Assembly: GCA_029582265.1 (NCBI GenBank)
Contig: CM055817.1
Coordinates: 56,617,750-56,681,749, forward strand
Origin: Zoroaster sp. YZ-2022
Taxonomy: Eukaryota > Echinodermata > Asteroidea > Forcipulatida > Zoroasteridae
DNA: 64,000 nt
Direction: 5' to 3'
Shown one piece after another: positions 11,867 to 53,798 of this stretch (the first letter of the stretch is position 1; every line of letters starts with the position of its first letter). Under the pieces are notes generated by a model, which did no database searches, had not been told where the DNA came from, and worked only from the letters and a program-made list of their open reading frames with translations. A program made the translations under genes and the position numbers.

Positions 11867-13945
11867 CTCAGTGGAGTGTACATTTTTTGTTGTTGATCAG
11901 AATCATCTAACGATTGGATCGTATAGACAAAATTGTCATGATCGGGTTGATCGACGATTCTGTAGCGCTGTGGAGAGTAGGCATCTTGGATCTTATGACG
12001 GCCCTTGAATTGATGCTGTTTGAGGTATACAAAATCTCCAATAGCAAAGGTATACGGTTTTGCTTTACGATTGCAGATGGCTTCACGAGATTTCGCAGTT
12101 GCTTTTAATTTCTTCCGAGCAATCTCATAAGATTGTTGCAACCGTTGTCGATGTAGAGACACCCAGTCGTCACTGCTCTTCTGTTGTTTGCCGAGAAGGA
12201 GATCAACTGGAAGGAGAGCTTCTCGTCCAAACATCAGATAAAACGGTGTAAGGCTGGTAGCTGGATGGATAGTAGCATTGTAACAATAGACTAGTTCACC
12301 CAAATGTTTGTTCCAATGTCTTTTCTGCTTTTCTGTCAGAGTTCTAAGTAGGTCGTGCATCGTCCGATTAAACCGTTCACATTGCGCGTTACCTTGCGGA
12401 TGGTAGGCAGTAGTCCTAGACTTTCGAACACCATACAAAGAGCAGAGTTGTTGGATTAAATCAGATTCAAACTGTCTCCCTTGATCGGAATGAATCCGCT
12501 CTGGAACCCCAAACTTAACGAACCATTCATTTACCAGAACTCTAGCAGTTGTTACAGCGGTCTGGTCTTTCGTCGGAACGGCCAAAGTGTATTTGGAGAA
12601 AATATCAGTGATTACAAGAACATTCTCAGTACGATCCGATGTTGATTCCAAGACAGTGAAATCAATGGCAACCACTTCAAGAGGACGCGATGCAATCAAT
12701 TGACCTATTGGATTTCTTGGTTTAGGAGATGGAAGTTTAGCCACAATACACCTCTCACAATGCTGAACCCAATCCTTAATGTCTCGAAACATACCAGGCC
12801 AGTAACATCTTTGTTGAATCAAAGAAAATGTTCTCTCTACTCCTTGATGGCCACTCTGGTTGTGAAGTGAAGAAAGAACAGTTGGCTTCAAACAACTTGG
12901 TAGTAAGAGTTGCTTAGTGTCAATGCCGTTATGAATTATTGTCCTGTACAAAACCCCATCAATCTCAACAATTTTCTCACATTGCCTGAGAAGGACCAAT
13001 ACCAAATGAGGTTCAAGCTTTCTTTCTGAAGGAGAAGGTCTCTTCCCATTACGGAAGTAGAAGGAGAACCTTTGTATAGTAGGGTCTTTCTGCTGTATTT
13101 GCTGAAGTTCCTCTTTGGAGGACGAGGGGAATGATGAAATTTGTGAAACTACTGCATGACAGTTCCTGGCTGCAGCCAACTCTAAGTGTTCTATCGTGCC
13201 AGCGACTTGGAGGTCTACTGGAACAAGGGAAGGAGACACGTTTATATCAATGAGACCTTGAGTTTCATCGGTTCCTTCACCTTCAACTTCTCGTGGGATT
13301 CTTCGAGAAAGAGCATCTGCATTGGCGTTCTCACGACCTGTTCTATACCTAATTTGGAAATCATAGGTATTAAGTCTTGCCACCCATCTCTGTTCAGTAG
13401 CGTCCAGACGTGCTGTCTGCAGGTGACTGAGTGCGTTGTTATCAGTCCATACTTCAAAGGAGCTTCCGTACAAATAGTCCTTGAACTTTTCAGTTACATC
13501 CCAAGTGAGTCCCAAGAGTTCCAACTTCATCGAACTATATCTTTGCATGTGTCGCTCATTGGGACGGAGAGTACGGCTTGCATAAGCTATCACTTTACGT
13601 TTTCCGTCTTGTTGTTGAGAAAGGACAGCACCCAATCCATCTAAGCTGGCGTCGATTTCAACAATGAACGGCTGAATGAAGTCAGCATAAGCTAGAATGG
13701 GCACAGATGTAAATTGACTTTTAAGTTGTTCAAACGCTTCCTGGCACTTCTCGGTCCATCGCTTGCGGAAGTAACTCGGTGACTTTTTCTGGCACTCTCC
13801 AATCAAGGAATACAACTCACGAGTGATCTTTGAGAATGAAGGCACATACCGTCTGTAATAGCCCGCGAATCCGAGGAATGTTCTTAACTGCTTCAATGTC
13901 CGTGGAGTGGGCCACTCAGCTACTGCATTCGTCTTGGAAATCTGT
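11863..13945 (-). pseudogene. Truncated Gypsy pol: RT connection, RNase H, integrase
   Basis: Minus-strand frame open from the deletion junction at about 13945 to the stop at 11863. It begins within the RT thumb/connection (FLGFAGYYRRY). RNase H follows (VEIDASLDGLGAVLSQ, then WTDNNALSHL). The integrase zinc-binding HHCC region is next (HNQSGHQG..CERCIVAK), then the DDE core (AIDF; HSDQGRQFES; ERFNRTMHDLL). Gypsy pol normally also carries protease and the RT fingers and palm upstream, and none is present. The first in-frame ATG is 13896, but homology extends upstream of it. An intact reading frame in a deletion derivative suggests a recent event or trans-mobilisation. Confidence 0.9.
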
Positions 13946-13987
13946 CGGGGTCTCCCCGCGCAGGTTCAAATCCTGCCGACTACGCCA
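13946..13987 (+). other. tRNA-Ser 3'-half sequence at the primer-binding site
   Basis: The plus strand here reads like the 3' part of a eukaryotic tRNA-Ser: long variable arm (GGGGTCTCCCCGCG), T arm (CAGGTTCAAATCCTG), acceptor strand (CCGACTACG) and terminal CCA. It ends 3 bp from the 5' LTR. It is thus the primer-binding site of element 1, but about 42 nt match instead of the usual ~18. It directly abuts truncated pol. The tRNA match is from recalled tRNA-Ser consensus. Confidence 0.75.
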
Positions 13988-13990
13988 TTT

Positions 13991-15069
13991 TGTAACCAAG
14001 CAGAAGAAAGGTGACAAAACTCTTTTTCTTTACAGGTCTGGTTAACGTTAAGTTGTTTATTAATTTAGGACTATAAAATAACAAATTAATATCCAACATA
14101 CAAGTTTTCTACTAAACTGGGGTGAACATCCACTATACACTCAAATTTCACGATGTGAGTGGAATTTCATGGCAAAAACTTTCAGTGTAAGGATTAACAA
14201 GGCTAAACAAGACTATAGCAATACTACAAGGCTAAACAAGACTATAGCAATACTACAAGGCTAAACAAAACTATAGCAATACTACAAGGCTAAACAAAAC
14301 TATAGCAATACTACAAGGCAAAACAAAACTATAGCAATACTACAAGGCTACCAGAAAGGGGCCTGGAAGAAATAGAAATACAAAAGTATTAATTATTAAA
14401 TGCATACCTTCCCATTTGGATAACTTTTAAATTAAAGATTACGTGGGACTTACTTCGTTTGAGTAAATTTAGACCATGTCAATGCAAAATTTACTATTAC
14501 TCATAATGCGAATATTCAAGTTAAACTTGGAAATGAAAAATACAAAATCACATGTGGAAATTACACTTCACAGTAAAGATAATTCCCACCTACGGAACTC
14601 ACCTAGACACTCTTCTGCACCCGAAAGGTTACTGCCTGATGGATGAAAATGAAGTTGTACCATACAATTGTCATTTAACGGAATGAAAACTAATGGTGGC
14701 TGAACTTAAGAAACGAAAATAACTAAGAAGAACAGCTCTCTACTGTAGACCCTTCCTCTACAGCGGCAAGTGCAGGAATGGTTCCTTAACATTGCACTGT
14801 GCAGCTCGCTGCAACGCTTGATTGAACATTGGCATCCTAATTGTTTGATGACAATGCTCACAACCATTCCAAGACTTCCAATATAGAAGAGTTCCAAAAG
14901 AAGGACACTGGGCATGTTATACATTCCAAAAGGGTTTTAAAAATCACTAAAGGTAAGTATGCAAACAATGAATTTGCAGAATGCAAAGTCAGCTGGTTAC
15001 ACCGGGTAGTAAAAGTCATTAAAGGTAAGTAAGCAATGAATCTGCAGAATGCAAAGTCAGCTGGTTACA
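13991..15069 (-). repeat. LTR (5') of Gypsy element 1
   Basis: 1079 bp, TGTAACC to GGTTACA. Five 29-bp internal units versus six in the other LTR, otherwise only scattered substitutions. The high similarity of the two LTRs implies a young insertion. Confidence 0.93.
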
Positions 15070-15945
15070 ATATGAAAACCTTCCTCTCACTGATCTTACA
15101 CCATATACAAACCTTCCTCTTACTGATCTTACACCATTTACAAACTTTCCTCTTACTGATCTTACACCATATACAAACCTTCCTCTTACTGGTATTACAC
15201 CATATACAAACCTTCCTCTACTGGTCTTACACCATATACAAACCTTCCTCTTACTGATCTTACACCATATACAAACCTTCCTCTTGCTGATCTTACACCA
15301 TATACAAACCTTCCTCTCACTGATCTTACACCATATACAAACCTTCCTCTTGCTGATCTTACACCATATACAAACTTTCCTCTCACTGATCATACACCAT
15401 ATGAATACCTTCCTCTCACTGATCTTACACCATATAAAAACCTTCCTCTTACTGATCTTACACCATATACACACCTTCCTCTTACTGATCTTACACCATA
15501 TACAAACCTTCCTCTTACTGATCTTACACCATATACAAACCTTCCTCTTACTGATCTTACACCATATGAAAACCTTCCTCTCACTGATCTTACACCATAT
15601 ACAAACCTTCCTCTTGCTGATCTTACACCATATACAAACTTTCCTCTCACTGATCTTACACCATATGAAAACCTTCCTCTCACTGATCTTACACCATATA
15701 CAAACCTTCCTCTTACTGATCTTACACCATTTACAAACTTTCCTCTTACTGATCTTACACCATATACAGACCTTCCTCTTACTGGTGTTACACCATATAC
15801 AAACTTTCCTCTTACTGATCTTACACCATATACAAACCTTCCTCTTGCTGATCTTACACCATATAAAAACCTTCCTCTTACTGATCTTACACCATATGCA
15901 AACCTTCCTCTTACTGATCTTACACCATATACAAAGCTTCACATC
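15070..15945. repeat. 33-bp tandem array, right part
   Basis: About 26 units of the same 33-bp repeat as 9261-9650, with variants (TATGAAAA, TATACACA, TTTACAAA) mixed along the array. It lies in the intron immediately upstream of the first visible LRR exon. The 307-codon minus frame and 243-codon plus frame are products of the three-divisible period. Confidence 0.95.
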
Positions 15946-15982
15946 CTACTTATCTTCATATACTTTGATTTTTGTATTGAAG

Positions 15983-16885: not shown

Positions 16886-16940
16886 TTAAGAACATGATGA
16901 AATCAATTCATGATGAGCTTGTTTTCTATTGAATTTTCAG

Positions 16941-18162
16941 GTACGTGGACGACTACAGACTCTGTTGTGAGTTTGTTTCTTTACCTAACTTCACGATATC
17001 ACATTGTGAGACGACAGAGTTACAACCACCACTAAACCTCTGTGGTAGTCTCATGCGGAACACACTCCTTCGCGTATCCATGTGGGTTCTTGGAATAAGC
17101 GCCCTCATCGGCAATGTTGTGGTATTCGTCCAAAGAACAAGGGAGTGCCATGCGACCCGAAATAGAAATCGTAACGCGAACATAAGGCACTCAATTATGG
17201 TTCTAAATCTAGCCGTGTCTGACTTCATGATGGGTGTTTATATGCTCATTATTACAGTAGCAGATCTGCATTTTGGTGAGACGTATTCAACGGAGGCCAA
17301 GCAATGGCGGTCAAGCGTGATATGCAAATTAGCTGGCGTGTTGTCGGTCTTGTCGTGTGAGGCGTCTGTGTTTATCGTCACACTTATAAGTGTAAATTGT
17401 TTCTGGGGTATCGTGTACCCCTTCAGCTCATGGAAACCAAGCAAGAAATCCACCAATATAGTTCTACTCGTGATTTGGTCAATGTCACTTGGTTTGAGTA
17501 TTGGACCAACGGTCTTTGGTAGTGGGTCAGATTCGGATATCTACGGTTTATCCGATGTGTGCATTGGACTACCACTCATCACCAAACCAACCGCTTTCGA
17601 GGTCAACGAGGGCGCTATTGATAATCCACTTGGGAGCCAGAGTGTATCGATCCCAGTAGGTAAAGGTCAGAAGCCAGCCTGGATTTTCTCAATTATCCAC
17701 TTTCTTGGTGTCAACCTCATGTGTTTCCTGGTAGTGTTCGTCTGCTATGTTGCAATTTTTTTCAAAGTCAAGCGCACATCGAATAAGGTCCGCGTGGCCG
17801 CTCACCGTGATCGGGAAATCAGAATGGCGGTCAAAATGGCATTCATAGTCGGCACTGATTTTGCATGCTGGATGCCTGTGATCATCATGGGGATTCTTTC
17901 TCAGACTGGGACGGTAGTAATCGGTCCAGACATGTATGCCTGGATTGTTGTCTTCATCCAACCCATAAACTCCTCCCTGAACCCGTATCTATACACTCTT
18001 TTTACGTCTATATCGGAACAGCGATCAAAGAGCACGAAACCCAAATCAGTTTCCAAAAATATGAAATCGTTAGACACATTGAGCATGAGTGTGTCAGAAA
18101 ACAAACATCCACAAAACAAAGAAATGACGGTAGGCAAAAACACGGATGAAAGTACAATGTAA
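16941..18162 (+). CDS. LGR/GRL101-like GPCR, hinge and seven-helix exon
   Basis: Exon starting after TTTTCAG at 16941 (phase 2) and ending at TAA 18162, about 406 residues. It opens with the cysteine-rich hinge (DDYRLCCEF, then a C and LNLCGSLM), typical of LRR GPCRs of the GRL101/relaxin-receptor type. Seven hydrophobic helices follow, at roughly residues 43-65, 82-108, 125-150, 170-190, 245-270, 292-318 and 327-352. Family motifs present: LNLAVSDFMMGVYML in TM2, a Cys at the start of TM3, IVYPF after TM3, and NPYLY in TM7. The usual E/DR(Y/F) after TM3 is replaced by NCF (SVNCFWGIVYP), which is unusual. Predicted cell-surface receptor; the ligand is not inferable. The C-terminal tail is Ser/Lys-rich. 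Confidence 0.88.
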
Positions 18163-26589: not shown

Positions 26590-27735
26590 CACCGCGATTC
26601 AATCTTTCCTGCAGCTAAATTCTCCAGACCTCCTTGCTTTATGCGAGTCTCGCCTAGACAACAGTATAATGTCTACATCACTGACAATACCTGGCTATGT
26701 CATACATAGACTTGACGCTCCACCATGTCATGGACTTTGTATTTTTGCAAAGGACACACTTCCCCTTAGCCGTGAGATCTCACTTGAGGATGTGCTTTCG
26801 CCTTGCACTTTTACATTCCACTATGTATCTCTACTGTCTTTACCGCTCACCCTCATCACAAAATAGTGTTATATTTGATGCGATATCCAACAGCATCGAC
26901 CTGGCACTTTCTCGTCATCCTACAGCAGAGATCATGGATTTTGGTGATTTGAATGTTCATCACAAGGAATGGCTGGTCCATTCCAACAGCATCTGGTGTC
27001 AGTGCTTTCAATTTTGCTTTGTCTCATGACCTTACTCAGATCATCTCAGCACCTACCCGTATACCTGATCGTGTCACTGATAACAGGTATCTTCTTTATT
27101 TGTTTCTGTGCTCAAATCCTAATGTTTGTACCCCCACAATCCTAGGCCCACTTGGAAACTCTGATCATGCTAACATTGAGGTTCAGGTTCGTTGTACCTC
27201 TGAGTCACCACTGACTTGTTCTCATCCATATCACCGGACTGTTTTCCAGCACGGCAGGGCTGACAGCGATGGATTTCGTTCTTTTCTTGGTGACATCCCC
27301 TGGAATTCGATTTTTTGCCTAAGTCCATCTGAGGCAGCCGATGAAGTGACGGACTGGATCCAGGTTAGAATGGATATCTTTATACCCTCCCGTACCTACC
27401 AAGTGAAATCACACTCTCAGCCATGGTTCACCCCTGCGTGTGCTGCCGCTATCTCCCATCGAAACCATTATTTCCATCAATTTAACAGAGATGGTTCAAG
27501 GTTGGCCCACCATCAATTTCGCCTTGCTAGAAACAACAGCAAAAAGGTTCTGGAAAATGCCAAGCGCCATTACGCAGAGTCTGTTCAGGAGTCCATCTCA
27601 ACTCAACGTCTTGGCTGCAGAGATTTTTGGAGAATTGCAAACAGCATCCTTAATAGAAATAAGTGTACTATTCCAGTTCTTTTCAATGGTCCTGAAGTTC
27701 TCACATCTCCTATTGACAGTCAACCTTTTTGCTGA
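26590..27735 (+). pseudogene. LINE endonuclease domain, frameshifted
   Basis: Apurinic/apyrimidinic-type endonuclease of the LINE polyprotein, spread over three frames: an N-terminal part (ALCESRLDN.. near 26640), a middle part near 26880-26960 (FGDLNVHHKEWL), and a C-terminal part from 26953 (LGPLGNSDHANIEVQV, the SDH motif of this nuclease). The linker to RT follows. Frame breaks near 26880 and 26960 preclude a functional product. Confidence 0.7.
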
Positions 27736-29636
27736 TCGTTTTGCAGCCAACTCCACACTTGATGACCTAGGCCGAGACCTGCCTGACTGTCCTTCTCGTG
27801 TTAACAGCAGTTTATGTACGATCAACGTCACACCTAAGATGGTAGCTAAAGTCATCAGTCATCTTGACACTTCTAAAGCCTCAGGACCTGACCGAATTCC
27901 TGCAACTGTACTGAAGATGTGTTCACCAGAACTGTCCTCTATCCTCTCCAAACTGTATAATCTTTGCCTGTCACACTCAGTGTTTCCATCCAATTGGAAG
28001 CTGGCCTCTGTTGTTCATGTGTTTAAAGGCTCGGGAGCGAAAGCAGATCCCTCCAATTATCGACCCATAAGCCTTCTTCCTATTATGAGTAAGGTCTTTG
28101 AAAGCCTGATTAACCAGCAACTCATAGATTATCTCGAAGAACATGAGCTCCTGACTGATGTTCAGTATGGTTTCCAACATTCACGGTCAACAGGTGATAT
28201 CATATCCCTGATCACAGAACACATAAATAGAGCGTTAGATCGACGTGGTGAAGCAAGGCTTGTTGCCCTTGATATTTCAAAGGCCTTTGATAAAGTTTGG
28301 CACAGACGGCTCATCCATAAATTGAAGTCATATGGCATCTCTGGTGAATTGCTAAATTTACTCTCTAGCTTTCTCAGTGAACGTCAGATCTCTGTTGTGC
28401 ACGAGGGCCATTCCCCCTCCACCCGTTGTATTAATGCAGGTCACAGAACACATAAATAGAGCGTTAGATCGACGTGGTGAAGCAAGGCTTGTTGCCCTTG
28501 ATATTTCAAAGACCTTTGATAAAGTTTGGCACAGAGGGCTCATCCATAAATTGAAGTCATATGGCATCTCTGGTGAATTGCTAAATTTACTCTCTAGCTT
28601 TATCAGTGAACGTCATGTCTCTGTTGTGCACGAGGGCCATTCCTCCTCCACCCGTTGTATTAATGCAGGTGTCCCGCAGGGTTCTGTCCTGGGCCCGTCA
28701 CTATTTTTACTATTTATCAATGACCTGCCTGATTCTGTCTCATCACAGTTGGCCATGTATGCAGATGACTCAACAGTATATACTGCATACCCTGGTCCTT
28801 TGTCTGCCACATCCTGTGCTCAAGCCAGTACTGTTCTCAACCTTGACCTAGAGAATGTCATTAACTGGGGTAACGACTGGCTTGTCACCTTCAATCAAAA
28901 GAAGACTCAATTGTTGTCTTTGTCCAGGTCCAGATCCCCACATTTTTCTACCTTGGCAATGAATTCAATACCATTGCAGGAGCTCACTGACATCCGGCTG
29001 CTTGGTCTTGATCTCACCTCCAACCTCTCCTGGGACAGGTACATTCGTAGTATTGCCAAAAGGGCCTCGCAGCGCGTAGGCTGCTTATATCGTGCGCGGC
29101 AATATCTTCCTCCATCCGTTATGCTCTACTTGTATAAGTCCACAATACGTCCTGTCATGGAATACTGCTCCCATATTTGGGCTGGTGCTCCAGCTTGTCA
29201 TTTGGCCCTGCTTGACGGTATACAGCGACGTATTGCAAATTTAGTTGGACATGACTTGGCTTCATCTCTGGAACCCCTATCTCTCCGTCGCTCTCTAGCC
29301 TCATTGAGCCTCTTTTACAGATACTATAATGGTAGGTGTTCCAAAGGACTTTCACTGGTTGTTCCACCTAACCGTACCTTTGGCCGCACCACACGTTTCT
29401 CTGCTCATTCTCATCCTTATACTGTATCTGTCCCCAAAGCAAATACCTGGCGGTACTCATCCAATTTCTTTCCACGTACTGCCTTACTTTGGAATTCATT
29501 ACCTGTATCCTGCTTCCCTGCCACCTATAATCTGTCTCAATTTAAACGCAACATCAATATTCATCTTTCTACTTTTAGATTTATTCTTCTCTTACCAACT
29601 TTCCCCTATTTAGCCTTCACCTTGAGTGGCCTGTAG
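27735..29636 (+). pseudogene. LINE reverse transcriptase, frameshifted and partly duplicated
   Basis: RT domain in two plus-strand frames (27735-28459 and 28377-29636). Motifs: FKGSGAKADPSNYRPISLLP, ALDISKAFDKVWH (first catalytic Asp), GVPQGSVLGPSLFLLFINDL, and MYADDSTVY (catalytic ADD). A C-terminal block with RTALLWNSLPVSC ends at the stop. The block around FDKVWH is present twice because of the 229-bp duplication, which shifts the frame. The family is typical of jockey/CR1/L2-like LINEs; the exact clade was not resolved. Confidence 0.85.
28212..28669 (+). repeat. 229-bp tandem duplication inside the LINE RT
   Basis: 28212-28440 is repeated at 28441-28669, both running from TCACAGAACACATAAATAG to TTGTATTAATGCAGG, with only a handful of substitutions. 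229 is not a multiple of three, so the copy breaks the reading frame. Confidence 0.95.
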
Positions 29637-37423: not shown

Positions 37424-37597
37424 CACAAGGATGGCAAAGTTAGTGGCATGGTTGCAGTTACATGATACTCTTTTATTGGTCAGATCTGCAAAGTCACAAC
37501 CATCCGTTGACCAATCACCGACACCCTTTTCCAGAGCGAAATCACAGAATACGCAATGTACACTGGTTGAATCCTCCTTAGTTACATTATCAGGTGC
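37424..37597 (-). CDS. Adhesion-GPCR-like gene: GPS-motif exon
   Basis: 174-bp exon on the minus strand, from an AG acceptor after a T-rich tract (37598-37599) to a GTATGT donor (from 37423), phase 0 to 0, 58 residues. It carries the GPCR proteolysis site: CVFCDF, GVGDWSTDGC, then CNCNHATNFAILV. In this family the four cysteines and tryptophans form the end of the GAIN domain, and autoproteolysis occurs before the Thr/Ser of the H-x-T triad; here that is HAT. The second tryptophan-type position reads CDF instead of the usual WDF. The seven-helix part should follow but was not found in the window. Confidence 0.85.
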
Positions 37598-38026: not shown

Positions 38027-38217
38027 CATGGATTCTATGACCAATGGTTCAGTCAGGTTCACGAGGTCAACATCTTCCACTGTCAGCGAGACCACAGATC
38101 CGGCAACCTCAAGACTTGCGCTGTTATTTCCTCGAGATTTCATGATCCGAGCTGAACTAAACAATGTGTCATCAGCGTAGACTACAAAACTGGCTCGGCG
38201 CTTTGTTGTGTTATCAT
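38027..38217 (-). CDS. Adhesion-GPCR-like gene: GAIN domain exon
   Basis: 191-bp minus-strand exon, acceptor TAG before 38217 and donor GTAATA after 38027. It begins with two bases that complete a codon begun in the previous exon (phase 1) and ends in phase 0, matching both neighbours exactly. The product contains RRASFVVYADDTLFSS and a late DLVNLTEPLVIESM stretch, typical of the beta-rich GAIN subdomain B (F-V-Y-.-N/D, V-x-N-L-x-x-P-V). Confidence 0.85.
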
Positions 38218-38748: not shown

Positions 38749-38835
38749 CATTAGCTGACTGTAATAAGTCAGCAATGTTCCCTGGTAACCGGATAGATGC
38801 CAACACATCAATATCACGTGGTATGTCCTTGCTAT
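38749..38835 (-). CDS. GAIN exon, 3' fragment beyond the Gypsy insertion
   Basis: Distal part of the exon whose proximal part is 48951-49255. It ends at a GTTAGT donor (from 38748), phase 1, compatible with the exon at 38027-38217. It encodes DVLASIRLPGNIADLLQSAN, a typical GAIN segment. Its right edge is the Gypsy LTR; the four bases CTAT (38832-38835) are the target duplication. Removing the element and one CTAT copy leaves an exon of 388 bp that keeps the frame. Confidence 0.85.
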
Positions 38836-39962
38836 TGTGGCGGGTTTCCCAGGCTCAACCTAAGTTCGATAGGGTCAAGTCAGACACCAATTGCGGTGAC
38901 AACAATTCCCCCAAACTAAGATTCTTTCCTAGACGAGATACCACTCAGAGCGATCTCTGGGCCAGGGGTATGAGTCCGTTTTGATGGAAATCTACCACCA
39001 ATTGTGATTGATTGTTAAGTCTATGCTAGCACACAGTTACTCAGAGAAACAAGGCACCTGAAAACAGAATTGTCGGTACAACACTATAATTTATTCAAGT
39101 TATAATTAGCAACATTACTGTGACTGGGTTGGGATTGATTCTTTTATTAACACCTGCATGGGTCCTCTTTCTTTTCAATCTCAATGTATAACTGACAGGT
39201 AATATTACAATGAAAAGTACTCAGCTCGCATCAGCATTACACTACTACATCAGCAATGCCCACTAGCATCAGCCTTAAACAACAGCGTCAACAATGCACA
39301 CTAGCATCAGCCTTAAACAACAGCGTCAACAATGCACACTAGCATCAGCACTAAACAACAGCGTCAATAATGCACACTTGCATCAGCACTAAACAACAGC
39401 GTCAATAATGCACACTAGCATCAGCACTAAACAACAGCGTCAATAATGCACACTAGCATCAGCACTAAACAACAGCGTCAATAATGCACACTAGCATCAG
39501 CCTTAAACAACAGCGTCAACAATGCACACTAGCATCAGCATTAAATAAGAATGCACACTAGCATCAGCACTACACGAGAACATTAGCCGTATACAGTTGG
39601 TATAGCTTTGTACTCATCAGCAATGCACGCCAGCGTTAGCTATGTACAGCTTCCAAAGTTTTGTACCTGCTACGCATCAGCTATGCACGCTAGCATCTAC
39701 AACGTACAGCTCATACAACTTATATTCTCTTTGCAGCTAATGCACCACGCGCTAGTCAGCGACGTACACGCAGAGCTAAGACAATAAACTTACGTCTTTC
39801 TACGCTGGCAGCTACCGCTCTCTTTTGCGCTATGGCATACCGCAGGCAACCACGACCGGCGCAGCCATCGCATCGCTACGCGCCTGCCCAATCAGCGCGC
39901 GCAACATAAGGTCACCCACAATCTAAATATTAGACTGGTATAGTCTTTCACTTTCCGTTACA
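38836..39962 (-). repeat. LTR (3') of Gypsy element 2
   Basis: 1127 bp. Contains about eight 36-bp tandem units (AACAGCGTCAATAATGC..AGCATCAGCACTA) at about 39235-39545. The other LTR is ~38 bp longer, mainly one 36-bp unit. Confidence 0.93.
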
Positions 39963-40880
39963 AAGGCCCGAGCATGGCCGAGAATGCCCCCATACTCGTC
40001 AGCCATAAATACAACAAAAATAGGAAAGTGTGTTATTTCTTAACTTTTTCTTTATAAAACAATATAACACTTAAGGGGGGGGGGGGCAATTTTCAAGAAA
40101 ATTAGTTATTCACAAGAGTTTATACAGAGTTAACTGGGGCCATCTTGTGTAAAGTTTACAATTTTTAAAGTCTAAGATCTGGTTGATTAAATATTCACAA
40201 AATGTACACTAGATTTTTATACAGGAAATTTGCTCATTAAATATTCACAGGAAATTTACATTGATTTTAAGATGCACAGTGTTTCGTTTTAAAATGACCT
40301 GTTCTCAGCGCACTTTTAGCTCCTAGAAAATGCACAGAATTTATTTTATACAAAATTTAAAAGTCTGATTCGTGGCTCATTAAAAGATTGCACCAATTTC
40401 TAAGAGAATGAATTTATACAGAATAAATATAAATTTTGCTAATTAAATATTCACAAGATTTTTACACTGATTTAAGAGGTTGAATTTATACAGAATTAAC
40501 ATAAATGTTGCTAATTAAATATTCACAAGATTTTTACACTGATTTTAGAGGTTCAATTTATACAGAATAAATATAAATTTTTGCTAATTAAATATTCACA
40601 AGATTTTTTTTTACACTGATTTTAGAGGTTCAATTTATACAGAATAAATATACATTTTTGCTAATTAAATATTCACAAGATTTTTTTTTACACTGATTTA
40701 GAGGTTCAATTTATACAGAATAAATATAAGAATTTACTCATAATTTAACAAAATGTGTACACAATTATTAGACTGATTTTTATATAATAGCAGTTTGTTC
40801 TACCGACTTTATAAAACGAATTCTAATGAACTTTTCTACAAAAAAACGCGAACTACAAAACAAAATGCAAACGGATGGTG
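39963..40880 (-). other. 3' untranslated part of Gypsy element 2 with a 75-bp repeat
   Basis: AT-rich region between the C2H2 frame and the 3' LTR. At about 40420-40735 a ~75-bp unit (TTTATACAGAATAAATATAA.., GCTAATTAAATATTCACAAG) is repeated four to five times. A G12 run lies at 40075-40086. No clear polypurine tract was seen at the LTR edge. Confidence 0.7.
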
Positions 40881-40883
40881 TTG

Positions 40884-41660
40884 TTACTCGCTCCCCAGGG
40901 GTCTTCCTTCCTCGTCAACCTCTATGAGCTTGAGGAAGATTCTGGTCTGCTGCTCATTGCTCACCAGAGCTCCATCTAGAAATGTTTGTGAAGAGGTGAA
41001 CTTCTTCACGGTAGCCACTTTCATCCGTTTGGTTGGGGGAGGGACTTCATCAGCCGGCGTGGCTTCAAGGACCACTTCCTCATCTGGACCCTCCAAGGAA
41101 GGAAGTGACGATGGTGTGGAGGAGGGGGCAGGGGACTCAGCTTTCTCCTGCATCATTTGCAGCATTCCTCTTGGCTTGCCTCCTCCAAGCCCGTAAGGCG
41201 TGACCACGGCCCTCGGCGAAAAGGGGGGCTTCTGCAGTGGGGACCTAGGGGTTGGGGACAACGACAAGACTGCCGGATCACCAACTTCCCTTTCTGACGC
41301 AATCTCCTCCGGCACCACCGGAGGGAGACTGGGCAACGACATACTCTTAATAACCGGCTGGCTCCCGGTTACTACCAGGCGTGCTATGGTGCATGGAACA
41401 TTCTCTGCCATGGGGTCCCCTGCAGGACTACCGACAACCCGCTCCATCCCCGTTGGATGACAGCTCGAAATATGATGTTGCAGAGTGGACACTTGACCCG
41501 CCTGGTAAGAACACTGACTGCAACACAGACTCTGCTCTGACTTGTGAACCTCGTGTATATGCCGCCACAGACTCTGTCGTTGATTATACCACTGAGGGCA
41601 CTGCTGGCAATTGAATCGCCTAGCGGGTCTTGCTCTGCCACGGCCTTTTCCTTGCGGCAT
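40884..41660 (-). CDS. Accessory C2H2 zinc-finger protein of Gypsy element 2
   Basis: Open frame downstream of pol; with the ATG of MPQGKGRG at 41660 it gives about 259 residues (an ATG further upstream at 41726 is also in frame). A basic N-terminus is followed by two C2H2 fingers, both C-x2-C-x12-H-x4-H: CQQCPQWYNQRQSLWRHIHE and CSQCSYQAGQVSTLQHHISS regions. The remainder is Ser/Pro/Glu-rich with no recognised domain. It begins about 140 bp after the pol stop. Gypsy elements usually end with pol or an env-like gene, so a nucleic-acid-binding protein here is unusual; its role is unknown. Confidence 0.75.
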   Translation of the reverse strand: MPQGKGRGRARPARRFNCQQCPQWYNQRQSLWRHIHEVHKSEQSLCCSQCSYQAGQVSTLQHHISSCHPTGMERVVGSPAGDPMAENVPCTIARLVVTGSQPVIKSMSLPSLPPVVPEEIASEREVGDPAVLSLSPTPRSPLQKPPFSPRAVVTPYGLGGGKPRGMLQMMQEKAESPAPSSTPSSLPSLEGPDEEVVLEATPADEVPPPTKRMKVATVKKFTSSQTFLDGALVSNEQQTRIFLKLIEVDEEGRPLGSE

Positions 41661-41798
41661 TGTGTTCACCAGTTGTCTGTCTCTTTGTGTCTTTCTAAGG
41701 AACAAAGCACAGAGTACCAAAATCAAAACTCTGAATTAGAAAATATTTATATATTTATATACACTTCCACTCAATACCGTACAATACAACCAAGTATT

Positions 41799-44110
41799 TT
41801 AACAATACCGCATGGGTAACTTGTGGGCCCTCTTAGGGTACCGCCTTTGCGGCGTCTCGCCAGGTGATTCTGGCTGACTACCCTGACCCTCTACTTCTTC
41901 TGTGATGTCAACATCCATCACAGGGGCTGCATTATTAGCCCTAGGCGAAACCTCATCAACACGAACCTCTAACTCAGGTTCTTCCACCTGGTCAAGGGGA
42001 GGGCTTTCTACCGCCTCACCGTTTGACCGGTAACACCAAGGTTGAATCGCCTCACCGACATACGGTTTCAATCTGTCCACATGGACGACCTTTGGTTTGC
42101 TTCCTCGCCTCAGCTGGATGCGAACCGTCACATCTGACAACCGCTTGACAATGAGCCATGGTCCTTCCCACCTCAATTGCAATTTTGGGGAGAGGTGCTT
42201 TTTCTTTGCTGGGTTAAACAGCCAAACCAACTGACCCTCTTTGACACCATGCTCAGAGGCACGCCTGTCATAGTTTCTCTTCTGCCTCCGGGCACTTTTC
42301 CCGAGACATTCTCGAGCCCTATCATGGGCTTGCTGCATGTCACTGCGCAGCTTTTCTGCAAAGTCCGTGTGGGTGCTATTTTGCACCCCTGGACACTCTG
42401 TCACCAAGTCTACCGGGAGACTGACCTCTCTACCCAACATCATCATATTGGGGGACTCCCCGGTCGAGTCATGGGGTGTGCATCGATATGCAAAGGTGGC
42501 ATAGGGGAGAACTTCATCCCAATCTTTTTGCCTCCTCACTGGATCGATCAACACCGACACCATATGGACCAATGTCTTGTTAAATCTCTCGACCATGCCA
42601 TCCGACTTGGGATTATAGGCGGTCGTTCGGGTTTTTGACACGCCGAGAATTCGGCATACCTCACTGAAAACTTCCGATTCAAAGTTTGTGCCCTGATCCG
42701 AATGAAGTTCTTGGGGCACCCCAAATCGACAAACAAACTCATTCACCAACTTTAACGCAACCATAGTTGCAGTTGCATCGGGTAGTGGGTAGGCTTCTAT
42801 CCACTTGGTGCAATAATCACCAACCACCAAAACCCACAGGTTACCACTGTCCGACTTCGGCAGTGGCCCGAGCAAATCTATGGCCACCCTTTCCATGGGA
42901 ACGCCAACCTGATACTGCTGTAGAGGGGCAACCCTCTTCTTAGCAGCCGACTTCCTCCTTGCACAGAGGTCACAACCCCTCAAGAAAGACCGTACATCCG
43001 CAGACATACCTGGCCAGAAATACCTGAACTTCACTTTGGCCAGCGTCTTGCTGACACCCAAGTGGCCACTGAGTTTCCCACCATGCAACTCAGCCAGTAT
43101 TTCCTTCCTGAACTTCAGGGGTAAGACCAACAACCACTTGACCGATTTCCCGTCATCCGACTCCCAACGTCTGGACAATAGCCCTTCACGAACCTCCAAC
43201 TGGTCCCACTGTGACCAATAGGTCTTACAGCTGGCTGTCAAGTGAGACACTACCTTCCATTCAGGACGACCACCGCCGTCCTTCTTAGACTTAATGACCC
43301 AACTCATTGTCTTATCCTGTAACTGGGCTTCCCTTAAAGCCTCAGTGGACAGGAGTGACTGTGCTGTAACGCCCCTGGTTACAGACTCGTCACCTTGAGG
43401 TAGTACCTCGGGGACCTCATGAGTCACCTCGTCACTAACTACCTCTTCACGGCCGCACTGTTTGCATTGCCGCCTCGACATCCCATCAGCATTACCATGT
43501 TTCTTACCAGGCCTATGCTCAATGACCAAGTCGTACTGTGATATGACCTCTATCCACCTCGCCAGCTGACCCTCGGGGTTCTTAAAATTAAGTACCCACC
43601 GCAAGGCAGCATGGTCAGTTCTGACCGTCACCTTCTGACCATACAGGTACTGCTTGAAATATTTCAAGTAAACCACGACTGCCAATAACTCCCGGCGAGT
43701 CACACAATAATTTCGCTCGGGTCTGCTGAGCTTACGGCTCGCATAAGCCAGGACTTTCTCATCGCCATCTTGGATCTGCGACAAAACCGCCCCGATACCA
43801 TTGCCACTGGCATCGGTGTCCAAGATAAAGTCACCATCGGGGATTGGATACGACAGAATTGGGGCAGTCTGGAGCCTGCCCTTCAACTCGTCAAACGCCA
43901 CCTGACAAGACTCAGACCAGACAAATTCTCTTGATTTCTCGGTCAAAGCGTGGAGTGGGCTCGCAATCTCTGCGAAACCTTGAATGAACTTCCGGTAGTA
44001 CGATGCAAGGCCCAAAAAGCTTCTTACATCACGCACACATCCCGGAACTGGCCAATTTGCTACCGCCTGGACCTTCTGAGGGTCTGTGGCCACTCCTCTG
44101 CGGACACAAT
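41799..44110 (-). pseudogene. Gypsy element 2 pol, second part: RT end, RNase H, integrase
   Basis: About 770-residue frame. RT connection (FLGLASYYRKFIQG), RNase H (FILDTDASGNGIGAVLSQ; TDHAALRWVLNFKNPEG), integrase zinc-binding HHCC (H..GHLG..CDLCARRK), DDE core (AIDLLGPLPKS; HSDQGTNFESE; MVERFNKTL), and a C-terminal GPWLIVKRL..VVHVDRLKPY module. It lies in a different frame from the first part of pol; the shift is at about 44085-44110. All catalytic acidic residues are present, so the frameshift is the main visible defect. Confidence 0.88.
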
Positions 44111-45820
44111 GTGCCCCAGGTACGCCACTGACCTTTGGAACAAGTGGCACTTGCTGGGCTTTAATTTAAGTCCAGCGTTCCTCAGCCTGTCCAACACCAC
44201 TTGGAGCCGCTCTAGGGTCTCCATCACCGTCTCACCAAAGACAATAATGTCGTCCAAATAAATCAACAAGATTTCCCACTGCAAGCCGGCCATGACTTTT
44301 TCCATGAGCCGCTCGAAAGTCGCCGGGGCATTGCACAGCCCGAAAGGCATGCACTTCCACTGGTACAATCCATTCCTAACAATAAATGCGGACTTCTGGC
44401 AAGCGTCCTCATCCAGAGCGACCTGCCAATACCCTGACGCCAAGTCAAGGGTACAAAACCACTTTGCCCCTCTCAATGCATCAAATGTTTCATCAATGCG
44501 AGGCACGGGATAAGCATCTTTGATGGTAACCGCATTCAATTTCCTGTAATCAACACAGAAGCGCTTGGTTCCATCCTTCTTGTTGACCAGAACAACATTT
44601 GCCGCCCACGGACTATCGGAGGGCTCAATTACCCCCCTCTTTTCAAGGTCACTGACTTGCCTCTGAATCTCTTGTCGATGACAATAAGGATGGCGTCTCG
44701 GCCGTTCTTTAACTGGCCTGGCCTCCCCTGTCTTGATCTGATGTTTGACCACTTCGGTGTGACCAATGTCATGGTCCCCACTCGAAAATACATCCTTGAA
44801 GTCGGTCAAACACTTCCGGACTTCACCATGGTACTTGGCCTCAACATTGGCTGTACCCCTACCATACAAATCCCTCAAGTGCATGGGAAGTTCATGCCCA
44901 GCATTCTCCACCTCGATTGAATTGAGAAGAATTGAATCTTCCCTTACTTGGGAGATGACCCCTACGGTCATACCCTCACGAGCCACTCTCTTTTCCCGAC
45001 CAGGGTTGAATACCCGTAATGGAATAATCTCTGACTCGGTCTCTACCAGGGATCTGGCTAACATCAAACCCTTCTGGGCCAAATCACCTCCACCTTCCAC
45101 TGGTTCAACAATAGCTGGCCCAACCAAGCCAGTACTCCTCCGGGCGACCATACCCGGGACCACGGCCTCATGGCCGGCTGGAACCACTGTAGTTCTAGAA
45201 ACTACGACTCGGCCAACAAATGGCTCACCTGCACTGCCTGTGCATCTAATCTTCTCACCATTCAGCTTCCATTCTTTGGCCTGGAAATCTAAATTTCCGC
45301 CAGTGGGCACCAGGAAATCCATACCAAGAATACCAGGATAATTCATGTCAGTGAAGATTGCCTTCACCAGGTGCGTGGTCCGGCCAACTTGCACCTCTAC
45401 CCAAGCAATCCCAAGCACCGCTAATGGGCTACCATCGACCTGCCGAACCTGAACACCCTCCGTCTCCAAGACGGGCCTCTGTTCCTTCGGTATCTGGTAA
45501 TACACCGAACTACTAATCAAAGTATCGGTGGACCCTGTATCGATTAAAAATCGACACTTGGTTGCCCTTACAGTTCCATCAACAAACAGACCATACCGAG
45601 GGCCAAGACTTGAACCAGGCAGAGTTATTACTCTTTGCTCTTCCCCTGACTTTTGTCTCTTTCCTCCTTCACCACCCCCGTCACTACGATATCGTTTGGA
45701 CCCTCTGCACAATCCAGCCTGCCCGCGGGCCCTACGTGAGGCTGGTTGGCGTTTCCCTGCATTTGGGGAAGTCTCCTTCGGGATTCTTGCACTGACGTGC
45801 AAAATGCCCCTCTTGTCCAC
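44060..45820 (-). pseudogene. Gypsy element 2 pol, first part: protease and RT
   Basis: 586-codon frame overlapping the end of gag by about 90 bp, so it is probably reached by ribosomal frameshifting. A basic linker is followed by a retropepsin domain with FLIDTGSTDTLIS (DTG active site), then RT: VDYRKLNAVTIKDAYPVP, FCTLDLASGYWQV, MPFGLCNAPATFERL and YLDDIIVFGE (catalytic YLDD). It runs into a stop shortly after YLGHIVSA because of a one-base shift relative to the next frame. Confidence 0.88.
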
Positions 45821-47246
45821 AATTGAAACACCTCCAGGTATTACCCTCTACTTTTGGAGGTTGCTGCTTCTCTTTAGACTGCACTCCACTCTGGCTTGGA
45901 ACCGGACTTGTTAATTTCTCCAACAACCCAGTTACAATTTCCAAAGTCCGTTTTTGCTCACTAAGACTTCTCTCAACCGTCCCTAATCTCTGCTCCACTC
46001 CGGAGTCAGTTGCCCTTGCCAACTTGGCAGGCTTACAGTCCAGCATTCTTTGCTGTTCGACCATCTCAAAATTTTCTGTCTCCAGGGCAGCCTGGATTGC
46101 CTCATCCAAATTGCTTGGACGGGCTCTATTGATTCCCTCTCGGACAGAATGGCTATTTACAGCGTCCAGAAAATGGTTCCTTGCCAATCTATCTCGGGCA
46201 TCTTCCACTATCTCAGGGTATGCCCGAACTGTCAATTCATGAATTGCTTGCCCTAGTTCTTGTAGGGTTTCCTTTGGCTTTTGGCGTCGATACCTTAGTT
46301 CGACAAGGTAATTCTCACTCTGTCGACCAGACCCAAAACGCCTCTCTAGCAACTTGACAAGCACACCATATGTGTACTGTTGCCCTGAGTCACCCAACAA
46401 CCGAAGAGCGTCCCCTTGCAAGCTTGCGGCTAAATACCTTGCGGCTTGCTCATCATTCCACTGGTTGACCTCTCGGCAAGACTCGAAATGGCGGTAATAC
46501 TCCTTCCAGAGTACCTTACCACTGTACCTGTCAGGGGTTATATTCGGGCGACGACTTGGTCGCTCCAAACTTTCCCTCCGACCATCATCACTACAAACCT
46601 GTGACTCCCTTCTCAGTGGCCAAGGACCCACTGAAGAGCTGTCTACTTCCCCAGCTAAACTGTCGCCTCTTTCCTCGACTGGTCGAGTCGCGAAGCCTAA
46701 CAGTTCGCTACGCACCTGTTTAGGTGTAACTACCTCCCTCTCTTGCAGGAAGGGGTTAGTACTCCTCTGAACCTGTCCCATGCCACCTTGCCCCGAAAAG
46801 AACAACGTCAGGTCGTCATTGACTTGACCGTCATTTTCACTGACAATGGGCGTCAACTTCGCTCGGGAGAACATCCCTGAGCCTTGTTGTTTCAGAGGTG
46901 TACTCTCAACAAAACTAACCTTTCCCAACTTGGGGACCGTCTCAGGCACCATGCCTAGACTTGACACCTGCCCTGTTGCACCAGAGACATACCCAGAAGT
47001 CTCTTCCGGCAACAGACACTCAACATCCGAATCTACCTGTTGGTGCACACGCCGACCTTTATCTGGCATGTCTTTGTTTCCTCCCTTGGGGAAAACTTCC
47101 AACTGTGAATCGGACATTGCTTCCAACTTCTTTGTCAGGAGATCTTTCTCCCAACGTAGAAATTGGGCATCCATCCGCAATTGGTGCACCTCATTATCAC
47201 CACCAGCACCCGAGGTGCCCTTTTTACCCATTAATCCTGTGCTCAT
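45732..47246 (-). CDS. Gypsy element 2 Gag with CCHC zinc knuckle
   Basis: Start ATG chosen at 47246 (MSTGLMGKKG), giving about 504 residues; the open frame extends upstream to 47459 but that part overlaps the preceding small frame. The N-terminal third is charged and low-complexity. The capsid-like region includes YSGKVLWKEYYRHFE and LAASLQGDALRLLGD, as in Ty3/Gypsy gag. The C-terminus has one zinc knuckle, CFNCGQEGHFARQC (CCHC). Its ATG overlaps the stop of the upstream small frame as ATGA (47243-47246). Confidence 0.85.
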   Translation of the reverse strand: MSTGLMGKKGTSGAGGDNEVHQLRMDAQFLRWEKDLLTKKLEAMSDSQLEVFPKGGNKDMPDKGRRVHQQVDSDVECLLPEETSGYVSGATGQVSSLGMVPETVPKLGKVSFVESTPLKQQGSGMFSRAKLTPIVSENDGQVNDDLTLFFSGQGGMGQVQRSTNPFLQEREVVTPKQVRSELLGFATRPVEERGDSLAGEVDSSSVGPWPLRRESQVCSDDGRRESLERPSRRPNITPDRYSGKVLWKEYYRHFESCREVNQWNDEQAARYLAASLQGDALRLLGDSGQQYTYGVLVKLLERRFGSGRQSENYLVELRYRRQKPKETLQELGQAIHELTVRAYPEIVEDARDRLARNHFLDAVNSHSVREGINRARPSNLDEAIQAALETENFEMVEQQRMLDCKPAKLARATDSGVEQRLGTVERSLSEQKRTLEIVTGLLEKLTSPVPSQSGVQSKEKQQPPKVEGNTWRCFNCGQEGHFARQCKNPEGDFPKCRETPTSLT

Positions 47247-47452
47247 ACTGCAGTCTCGTACTCGTTCGTGGGGGTATCCCTTAGGGCCTCCAACCAACGA
47301 ATAGCACGTCTCTGTTGTTGGATGATTGACCAAACGTAACAGAGAATTAGCAGCACAACCAAAACCAAGCAGACTAGACTCAAAGTAAAGATAATTATTG
47401 ACCACACCTGCATTAGGTTTGCCTTCTTCACAGGGTTTCCAAACTTGGCCAC
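47243..47452 (-). CDS. Small membrane protein B of Gypsy element 2
   Basis: 69 codons. One strong transmembrane segment (IIIFTLSLVCLVLVVLLILC), a short basic N-terminus and an Arg-rich segment after the membrane helix. It overlaps the end of small frame A by about 25 bp and its stop overlaps the gag start as ATGA, an arrangement suited to reinitiation. No homologue is recognised. Confidence 0.55.
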   Translation of the reverse strand: MAKFGNPVKKANLMQVWSIIIFTLSLVCLVLVVLLILCYVWSIIQQQRRAIRWLEALRDTPTNEYETAV

Positions 47453-47706
47453 TGCCCACTTGGTGACTCAGTCACATCAAGCTCGGCTGCCACCGTAGGA
47501 ATCCTTTGTTGTCTCAAACCTTGCAAGACCACTGCTCCGTGTGTTCGAATAGCCAGGCTATCGATTTGCAATAATGTCACCGTGTGATTCCTTGCGACCC
47601 GGCGCAAGCGTCTAAACTCCAAACGAGTCTTAGCCAAAACCCAAACAATCACCAATCCAATAACCACAAAAATCAACAACAACACAACGACAATCCACAA
47701 CTGCAT
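47428..47706 (-). CDS. Small membrane protein A of Gypsy element 2
   Basis: 92 codons, first ATG after the 5' LTR, about 60 bp after the primer-binding site. The N-terminal hydrophobic helix (LWIVVVLLLIFVVIGLVIVW) is followed at once by a basic stretch (RLEFRRLRR), so it is predicted as a single-pass or signal-anchor protein. It precedes small frame B and gag in an overlapping chain. Such a gene is not part of the standard Gypsy layout and no family was recognised. Confidence 0.55.
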   Translation of the reverse strand: MQLWIVVVLLLIFVVIGLVIVWVLAKTRLEFRRLRRVARNHTVTLLQIDSLAIRTHGAVVLQGLRQQRIPTVAAELDVTESPSGQWPSLETL

Positions 47707-47765
47707 TTATACCAGACTTGTAACTTGTGTATCTTTAGCAAAGGCCAACTTAATCAATCACAATC

Positions 47766-47783
47766 ATCCCACTTCTGACACCA
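47766..47783 (-). other. Primer-binding site of Gypsy element 2 (tRNA-Leu type)
   Basis: 18 bp, two bases inside the 5' LTR. On the plus strand it reads ATCCCACTTCTGACACCA, the 3' end of a eukaryotic tRNA-Leu(CAA) type with CCA. This gives the element orientation and a normal 18-nt PBS length. Confidence 0.8.
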
Positions 47784-47785
47784 TT

Positions 47786-48950
47786 TGTGGCGGGTTTCCC
47801 AGGCTCAACCTAAGTTCGATGGGGTCAAGTCAGACGCCAATTGCGGTGACAACAATTCCCCCAAACTAAGATTATTTCCTAGACGAGATACCACTCAGAG
47901 CGATCTCTGGGCCAGGGGTATGAGTCCGTTTTGATGGAAATCTACCACCAATTGTGATTGATTGTTAAGTCTATGCTAGCACACAGTTACTCAGAGAAAC
48001 AAGGCACCTGAAAACAGAATTGTCGGTACAACACTATAATTTATTCAAGTTATAATTAGCAACATTACTGTGACTGGGTTGGGATTGATTCTTTTATTAA
48101 CACCTGCATGGGTCCTCTTTCTTTTCAATCTCAATGTATAACTGACAGGTAATATTACAATGAAAAGTACTCAGCTCGCATCAGCATTACACTACTACAT
48201 CAGCAATGCCCACTAGCATCAGCCTTAAACAACAGCGTCAACAATGCACACTAGCATCAGCCTTAAACAACAGCGTCAACAATGCACACTAGCATCAGCA
48301 CTAAACAACAGCGTCAATAATGCACACTAGCATCAGCACTAAACAACAGCGTCAATAATGCACACTAGCATCAGCACTAAACAACAGCGTCAATAATGCA
48401 CACTAGCATCAGCACTAAACAACAGCGTCAATAATGCACACTAGCATCAGCACTAAACAACAGCGTCAATAATGCACACTAGCATCAGCCTTTAACAACA
48501 GCGTCAACAATGCACACTAGCATCAGCATTAAATAATAATGCACACTAGCATCAGCACTACACGAGAACATTAGCCGTATACAGTTGGTATAGCTTTGTA
48601 CTCATCAGCAATGCAAGCCAGCGTTAGCTATGTACAGCTTCCAAAGTTTTGTACCTGCTACGCATCAGCTATGCACGCTAGCATCTACAACGTACAGCTC
48701 ATACAACTTATATTCTCTTTGCAGCTAATGCACCACGCGCTAGTCAGCGACCTACACGCAGAGCTAAGACAATAAACTTACGTCTTTCTACGCTGGCAGC
48801 TACCGCTCTCTTTTGCGCTATGGCATACCGCAGGCAACCACGACCGGCGCTGCCATCGCATCGCTACGCGCCTGCCCAATCAGCGCGCGCAACATAAGGT
48901 CACCCACAATCTAAATATTAGACTGGTATAGTCTTTCACTTTCCGTTACA
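47786..48950 (-). repeat. LTR (5') of Gypsy element 2
   Basis: 1165 bp, nearly identical to 38836-39962, with one additional 36-bp internal unit. Only scattered substitutions were noticed, which points to a recent insertion. Confidence 0.93.
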
Positions 48951-49255
48951 CTATTCACAAACGTCATGACCTCCGTGCCATCAAGCGTGCCCTCTTGTGG
49001 TTGAACTTGCCCAGCATGTTGTATGGATACAAAGCTTAGTCCATTACTGGCCAGCATAGGGTCAAGACTGAGTGCCTCTACGTGGGTTGTGTCCTGTTGT
49101 ATGCTGACCTTTCCTTCTTGCCGAAGGGTCAGCGTTACTTGGGTCTCAACAGACTGGACAATAGCCGACGAGCTAACACCATCATCCGCTGAGTCCGTGT
49201 CAGGTTCGTAACTGATGATGACATTGTTGACAGTTTCAAGCACTGATTCAGTGAC
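48951..49255 (-). CDS. GAIN exon, 5' fragment before the Gypsy insertion
   Basis: Starts after TTTTGAAG (acceptor at 49256-49257) in phase 0 and is open to the LTR edge. Product: VTESVLETVNNVIISYEPD, SSSAIVQSVETQVTLTLRQE and a beta-rich stretch up to MTFVNS. This is the alpha-helical to beta transition typical of the GAIN domain. CTAT at 48951-48954 is the target duplication. The exon resumes at 38835. Confidence 0.85.
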
Positions 49256-49825: not shown

Positions 49826-49978
49826 CTCAATATCACCCGAACTAGCGTCGACAATGTTCACCAAAATGGTGGAAATAACATCAATGGGTACATCCTCTTT
49901 ATCGTCAGATAATGCTGATGATGTCTCGTTGGCTAGAAACTCAGCAACTTCTACAGCATTTCCTGTACTAACAGGAAC
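49826..49978 (-). CDS. Adhesion-GPCR-like gene: pre-GAIN helical exon
   Basis: 153-bp exon (51 codons, phase 0 to 0) from AG (49979-49980) to a GTAGGA donor (from 49825). It encodes AVEVAEFLANETSSALSDD and DVISTILVNIVDASSG, matching the helical GAIN subdomain A pattern of adhesion GPCRs (A-x-x-L-x-N-x-T, then I-x-x-I-V). Confidence 0.8.
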
Positions 49979-50421: not shown

Positions 50422-50549
50422 CATTGCGACATCTTCAAGGGTGATATTTGTCCTGACTTCCCCACAGCCGTGAGACTGAGGAACCTTCCACTGAAAGTAC
50501 GCAGGTGGCTCCAGCACTGAACATATCCTGATAGCTCTTGGAAAGCCAG
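50422..50549 (-). CDS. Adhesion-GPCR-like gene: stalk exon
   Basis: 128-bp exon, two leading bases plus 42 codons (phase 1 to 0), from CACAG (50550-50551) to GTGGGT (from 50421). It has two cysteines and a PPAYFQWKVPQSHGCGEV stretch, ending NITLEDVAM, which resembles the segment just before the GAIN domain of adhesion GPCRs. The donor is not ideal, but the phases on both sides fit. Confidence 0.65.
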
Positions 50550-50595: not shown

Positions 50596-50700
50596 ATATA
50601 TATATATATATATATATATAGAGCGCTCGTCTAGTATTCGAGAGGTCGTGGGTTCGAGTCCGGCATCAGCCAATTTTTCTTTGCTCGCGAACCGTTTATA
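50596..50700 (+). mobile_element. tRNA-Thr-like SINE, partial copy
   Basis: A TA run leads into GAGCGCTCGTCTAGTATTCG..GTGGGTTCGAGTCCGGC..CAGCC, then TTTTTCTTTGCTCGCGAACC. It is a 5'-truncated copy of the element at 50922-51020. Confidence 0.65.
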
Positions 50701-50921: not shown

Positions 50922-51015
50922 GGCTGGTTAGCTCAGTTGGTAGAGCACTCGTCTAGTATTCGAGAGGTCGTGGGTTCGAGTCTGGCATCAGCCAATTTTT
51001 CTTTGCTCGCGAACC

Positions 51016-51812: not shown

Positions 51813-52187
51813 TATCAGGTCATTTTGTTAGCTATATGCCGTTAGCATGTACCCCCGCATTGGCATACTTCTCGGCTAGTCCTTAGGCAAGTCGCTTTCG
51901 GCATGATAGAAACAGATGTTTCGGGCAGTTTCTGTATAGGCCTACCTCGTACCCACTGCTCTGACACCCTGGAACGGGACCATTTCAATTTCCAAAAGTC
52001 TTGGATATTTAAGTTAGGTGCTCGTAGCTTATGGGATTTGGGGAACCGTCTGATACACGAGTAATAAAAAGAACGTGTGCTGCAGTACATGTTAGAAAAT
52101 ATATCTGTTTTTTCTTCGAAAAAATAATTAAATTGATTTTGCTTATTATGTTGTATACATAGTACACAGTTTTAGTATTACATGCAC

Positions 52188-52609
52188 CTCTTATTCTTGA
52201 GTAAAATGAATCCACAGGTTTTGGTCCCGCCTGCAAGAAGGCCTGACACCAGTATTTCATGTCATCATTTAAGGTGATTGACTTCGCAATTAAGGCATTG
52301 TTACCATGTCTGCTATCAAACACGTAATGGCTTTGGTTAATGTCTGGTTCATAAACAACATTATTCCCATAGTATACTGACAATAGACTCAGCATCGCTG
52401 ATGTCCGTTACATTCACGTCACTCAATCTCCATTCTAAGGCATAGTAGGTCTCGCTGACAGTACAGGTAAGTGTTGTATCTTCTCCAATATCCACCCATA
52501 AATCACCATGAACTATGACCTGAGAGACAGCTACTGCACATTGGAAGCACGACAATACAAAAATATAAAAATATAATCTCAAAACTCTGTTTAAAAAACA
52601 ACAATTCAT
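52188..52609 (-). pseudogene. Adhesion-GPCR-like gene: signal peptide and Ig-domain exon, frameshifted
   Basis: Minus-strand ATG at 52609 opens a signal peptide (LRLYFYIFVLSCFQCAVAVS) followed by an Ig-like domain: DIGEDTTLTCTVSETYYALEW (first Cys and core Trp). The second half is one base out of frame (break at about 52365-52380) and has the later Ig hallmarks, NDDMKYWCQAFLQAG. It ends at a GTGCAT donor (from 52187) in phase 1, which fits the stalk exon at 50422-50549. Alternatively a CTCTCAG acceptor at about 52525 begins the Ig exon. The break is either a real lesion or an assembly error. Confidence 0.65.
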
Positions 52610-52639
52610 TAGTTCAAATGTTTAGTTACTCTTTTAATC

Positions 52640-53298: not shown

Positions 53299-53798
53299 NN
53301 NNNNNNNNNNNNNNNNNNNNNNNNNNNNNNNNNNNNNNNNNNNNNNNNNNNNNNNNNNNNNNNNNNNNNNNNNNNNNNNNNNNNNNNNNNNNNNNNNNNN
53401 NNNNNNNNNNNNNNNNNNNNNNNNNNNNNNNNNNNNNNNNNNNNNNNNNNNNNNNNNNNNNNNNNNNNNNNNNNNNNNNNNNNNNNNNNNNNNNNNNNNN
53501 NNNNNNNNNNNNNNNNNNNNNNNNNNNNNNNNNNNNNNNNNNNNNNNNNNNNNNNNNNNNNNNNNNNNNNNNNNNNNNNNNNNNNNNNNNNNNNNNNNNN
53601 NNNNNNNNNNNNNNNNNNNNNNNNNNNNNNNNNNNNNNNNNNNNNNNNNNNNNNNNNNNNNNNNNNNNNNNNNNNNNNNNNNNNNNNNNNNNNNNNNNNN
53701 NNNNNNNNNNNNNNNNNNNNNNNNNNNNNNNNNNNNNNNNNNNNNNNNNNNNNNNNNNNNNNNNNNNNNNNNNNNNNNNNNNNNNNNNNNNNNNNNNN
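53299..53798. other. Assembly gap (500 N)
   Basis: Exactly 500 N. It cuts the reverse transcriptase of the DIRS-like element. Confidence 0.99.

Follow-up and report, generated by a model that had tools for sequence, protein, structure and literature searches.

A Ty3/Gypsy element within a coding exon of an adhesion-GPCR-type gene in the starfish Zoroaster sp. YZ-2022

A starfish adhesion-GPCR-type gene very probably carries a Ty3/Gypsy insertion that disrupts one of its coding exons, here called exon B, which no longer reads through on this haplotype. The window, i.e. the whole stretch of DNA analysed, comprises 64,000 nucleotides of contig CM055817.1. The element spans positions 38836–48950 (10,115 bp) and lies entirely inside exon B (table 1). 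The conclusion that it splits a GAIN exon follows from the target-site duplication, the matching reading phases, the homologues continuing across the join, and a homologue with a GAIN fold. Integration proceeded via a 4-bp staggered cut in exon B, in the orientation of the gene, as the target-site duplication, LTR ends, phases and homologues show.

Table 1. Features of the disrupted gene and of the inserted element, in the order of the minus strand.
Feature	Position	Strand	Evidence or remark
Exon H, second half of HormR-like region	50422–50549	-	profile E 1.1e-13; AG before 50549, GT after 50422
Exon A, GAIN start	49826–49978	-	profile E 7.2e-16; splice sites
Exon B, upstream part (predicted GAIN)	48951–49255	-	profile E 3.1e-42; tblastn, 16/16 homologues
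Target-site duplication CTAT, right copy	48951–48954		directly outside LTR edge
5' LTR	47786–48950	-	1165 bp; with 38-bp tandem array
Sense AATAAA in 5' LTR	48093–48098 and 48040–48045	-	putative polyadenylation signals
Putative primer binding site	47766–47783	-	two bases inward of 5' LTR; from sequence
gag ORF with CCHC zinc knuckle	45735–47471	-	ORF and Pfam
Protease and reverse transcriptase ORF	44063–45847	-	ORF and Pfam
RNase H and integrase ORF	41802–44165	-	ORF and Pfam; other frame than reverse transcriptase
Extra 283-aa ORF downstream of pol	40887–41735	-	weak C2H2 zinc-finger matches, below Pfam cut-off
3' LTR	38836–39962	-	1127 bp
Target-site duplication CTAT, left copy	38832–38835		directly outside LTR edge
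Exon B, downstream part (predicted GAIN)	38749–38831	-	profile E 1.9e-9; tblastn, 9/16 homologues at E<=1e-3
Exon C (GAIN)	38027–38217	-	profile E 1.8e-25; splice sites
Exon D, GPS motif	37424–37597	-	Pfam GPS E 1.8e-11; profile E 1.1e-23

The split exon and its homologues

Removal of the element, with one CTAT kept, restores an exon of 305 + 83 = 388 bp, which is 129 codons and one base. The joined exon, bordered by AG and GT, has one open frame out of three; it starts in phase 0 and ends in phase 1. Both phases agree with the neighbours, exon A finishing in phase 0 and exon C fitting phase 1. Joined exons A, B, C and D read through 302 codons without a stop. Introns within the gene are 429–570 bp long, the first measuring 443 bp instead of 441 bp with exon H ended at its GT.

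Of 4284 candidates, 16 database proteins match the joined protein (302 residues) at E<=1, and the weakest of them reaches E 3.1e-62. Fifteen of these homologues cover 99–100% of the query at 50–60% identity; the remaining one, P0016, covers 80%. All 14 that carry a source name are from starfish (Patiria miniata, Acanthaster planci, Asterias amurensis and Asterias rubens), with several family members per species among the matches found. Thirteen of the 14 are annotated as adhesion GPCR G2-, G4-, G6- or G7-like, and P0016 as uncharacterised. With tblastn and a cut-off of E<=1e-3, every homologue matches the upstream half of exon B and nine match the downstream half, the other seven scoring E 0.009–2.1 there. 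A profile built from the 16 homologues picks out the five exons as six collinear stretches, exon B being split in two, with E values from 3.1e-42 to 1.9e-9. These two values belong to the halves of exon B and, with the 16 homologues, rule out a chance open reading frame. Across six frames, the same profile finds nothing beyond the six stretches better than E 3.8.

Pfam reports no GAIN domain on exon B, only DUF4758 at E 0.013, below its cut-off, and a PDB sequence search with exon B alone returns one chance match (E 0.38). A profile of 15 homologues compared with solved structures finds 59 sequences of adhesion and other class B receptors. The earliest-starting of these begins at residue 156 of P0001 and most begin later, so that by sequence only the end of exon B is covered. 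From the fold of a homologue in Patiria, exon B is predicted to code for part of a GAIN domain. The gene thus shows the GAIN domain expected of an adhesion GPCR, as well as a GPS motif (Pfam GPS, 44.8 bits against a cut-off of 22.5; E 1.8e-11). The earlier note had proposed a GAIN-domain exon of an adhesion-GPCR-like gene that, once the element is subtracted, keeps its frame over 388 bp and fits the phase of the next exon. Both proposals hold, and the lack of a GAIN homologue, which it had named as a ground for doubt, is answered by the 16 homologues and the fold of the Patiria protein.

The locus shares the second half of a HormR, the GAIN region, the GPS and 50–60% identity with the G2/G4/G6/G7-like adhesion GPCRs of Patiria miniata, Acanthaster planci and Asterias. 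It differs from them in several respects. Their proteins are free of the element that interrupts exon B here; the 15 full-cover homologues carry a 7TM domain (PF00002), whereas none was found in this window; and in the GPS of exon D a Cys replaces a Trp that is invariant in the 15 aligned homologues. P0016, the uncharacterised Acanthaster planci protein, contains most of the GAIN region and has no 7TM domain listed. Its prediction also stops before the GPS; the protein is perhaps a fragment, or its gene model partial.

The inserted element and its age

The element has exact LTR edges at 38836 and 48950, and both LTRs have the TG..CA ends that, with a short target-site duplication, are typical of Ty3/Gypsy elements. 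The two LTRs are nine substitutions and one 38-bp unit of the internal tandem array apart; outside the array, 6 of 774 sites mismatch. On the minus strand, which is also that of the gene, the order is LTR, gag, protease/reverse transcriptase, RNase H/integrase, extra ORF, LTR. The putative primer binding site may resemble the 3' end of tRNA-Leu. No clear polypurine tract was read from the sequence beside the 3' LTR (39963–40010, minus strand). By Pfam, the pol domains follow the Ty3/Gypsy order of protease, reverse transcriptase, RNase H and integrase over two overlapping frames. Reverse transcriptase and RNase H fall in different frames, and pol is therefore interrupted as assembled. The 283-aa ORF downstream has four similar database proteins, the best 83% identical over 71%, and is therefore an extra gene that recurs, not an ORF that arose by chance. 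The description of a full-length Gypsy in the earlier note is accordingly correct from end to end but does not extend to an intact element. Its other observations, of CTAT at both LTR edges, of almost identical LTRs and of a common strand for element and gene, are borne out by the exact edges, by the computed divergence and by gag, pol and the extra ORF all lying on the minus strand.

The insertion is fairly young, as had been supposed from the similarity of the LTRs. Their divergence of 9/1127 sites corresponds to K 0.0080 (0.0037–0.0152). PMC10861045 gives a mutation rate of 9.13e-9 per site per generation for the crown-of-thorns starfish Acanthaster cf. solaris. With this rate, which is a rough guide for the present starfish, the age is about 437,000 generations (200,000–830,000; 155,000–1,160,000 including the rate's own interval), or some 0.2–0.8 million. 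The same paper places Ne at about 70,000–180,000 (PMC10861045). On these figures neutral coalescence is expected on a time scale similar to the insertion age, so that age cannot separate a polymorphic from a fixed insertion. About 3.6 neutral changes are expected in 906 coding bases since the insertion, and intact flanking exons therefore say little about function after it.

Completeness of the copy and consequence of the insertion

Five exons are present, coding for half a HormR, GAIN and GPS. The 37 kb downstream yielded no 7TM exon when a 7TM profile was run against 1204 open frames (minus strand, 1–37423; best E 0.51), while in a control all nine 30-residue pieces spiked in from a paralogue that had been left out were detected at E<=4.4e-7. 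A weak 7TM-like stretch at 6024–6173 (minus) is at chance level (profile E 0.51–1.4; tblastn E 1.1–5.9). Upstream, the preceding HormR exon was not found in the 13 kb from exon H to 64000 (best E 4.9). Spiked pieces of that exon were detected at 4.4e-11 (P0012) and 2e-12 (P0008); control recovery overall was 3/3 for P0012 and 5/9 for P0008, both pieces of the preceding HormR exon included. Since no 7TM domain above chance was found after the GPS within the window (minus strand, 1–37423), the locus is classed as an adhesion-GPCR-type gene or fragment and not as a complete adhesion GPCR. Either its introns have been greatly stretched by repeats, or this gene copy is a fragment.

The element may thus have struck a fragment already devoid of its 7TM and 5' exons, in which case nothing working was destroyed. 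This reading, which is compatible with the disruption proposed here, is evenly balanced between yes and no. Both searches were negative while the control pieces of the regions sought were detected, the existing introns are short (about 0.43–0.57 kb), and the GPS carries Cys in place of Trp. In the five exons, nevertheless, frames and splice sites are preserved and constraint is normal: of 68 columns that are otherwise invariant, 2 differ here, against 0–12 in 10 other representatives (P0016 and five near-duplicates of at least 88% identity being left out of the 16 homologues). This count is within the normal range, which makes long decay before the insertion unlikely. Moreover, two 500-N gaps in the searched stretches (8761–9260 and 53299–53798) could conceal an exon, and repeats can lengthen introns.

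Exon B read into the LTR continues for 13 residues past the join and then meets a stop at 48913–48911 (minus). The transcript probably ends at the sense AATAAA signals of the LTR or is degraded. The product would be at most a HormR stub with part of GAIN, lacking the GPS and the membrane part, and the allele is most likely null. It is quite improbable that the element is tolerated through splicing that removes either the element itself or exon B and still allows a useful protein. If the 388-bp exon B alone is skipped, the frame shifts and a stop follows after 11 codons; joint skipping of exons B and C does keep the frame, but most of GAIN is lost. The outcome of an exon spliced around, which the earlier note had listed, is disfavoured for these reasons. 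Assemblers can go astray at long LTRs that are nearly identical, but an assembly chimera joining flanks from different places through the LTRs, a doubt also voiced in that note, is rejected as scarcely credible: the flanks supply the two parts of a single exon, in the same register and orientation, with a matching 4-bp duplication, and there are no Ns between 9261 and 53298.

Many exon-disrupting insertions of LTR retrotransposons are known in animals. The disruption of exon B resembles them in its target-site duplication, LTR-to-LTR element, broken frame and sense LTR polyadenylation signals; it differs in its host, a copy of a starfish adhesion-receptor gene. As gene-disrupting insertions go it is an ordinary one; the copy that it hit may have been incomplete beforehand, and no new mechanism is added. 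Its value is that of a clean, roughly dateable case in which a retrotransposon broke an exon coding for a member of a starfish receptor family, and, if polymorphic, of a natural null allele. A more far-reaching interpretation is improbable: a presence/absence allele still segregating in a natural population of sea stars, within one copy of an expanded adhesion-receptor family, that makes a secreted HormR/GAIN stub ending in the LTR. Judged by titles and the openings of abstracts, no paper was recognised as treating this insertion.

Other features of the window

Further mobile elements occur in the window. A second Gypsy copy occupies approximately 9641–15956, with an RNase H/integrase ORF at 11866–13965 (minus) between direct repeats 98–99% identical, and 33-bp tandem arrays lie at 9261–9650 and 15076–15956. 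Reverse transcriptase ORFs of non-LTR type are found at 26953–29636 (plus) and contain a 229-bp tandem duplication (28212–28670) within the reverse transcriptase. A tRNA-like repeat is present in two copies 97% alike, at 50619–50678 and 50941–51000; the latter overlaps a tRNA-Thr call at 50922–50994 (plus) made by ARAGORN and Rfam. As a guess, this repeat could be a tRNA-derived SINE.

An Ig-like coding stretch at 52012–52621 (minus) extends over two overlapping frames. Neither frame alone gives a domain match; joined with X, they match Ig_3 at E 1.4e-4, below cut-off. Ig-like sequence near 52.2–52.5 kb is absent from the homologues, and the stretch was therefore left out of the receptor gene. 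A rhodopsin-type receptor ORF lies at 16933–18159 (plus; 7tm_1, E 1.2e-23). Among the best 120 of 384 listed matches, the relatives with names are GRL101-like receptors of starfish and brittle stars, the best match being 85% identical.
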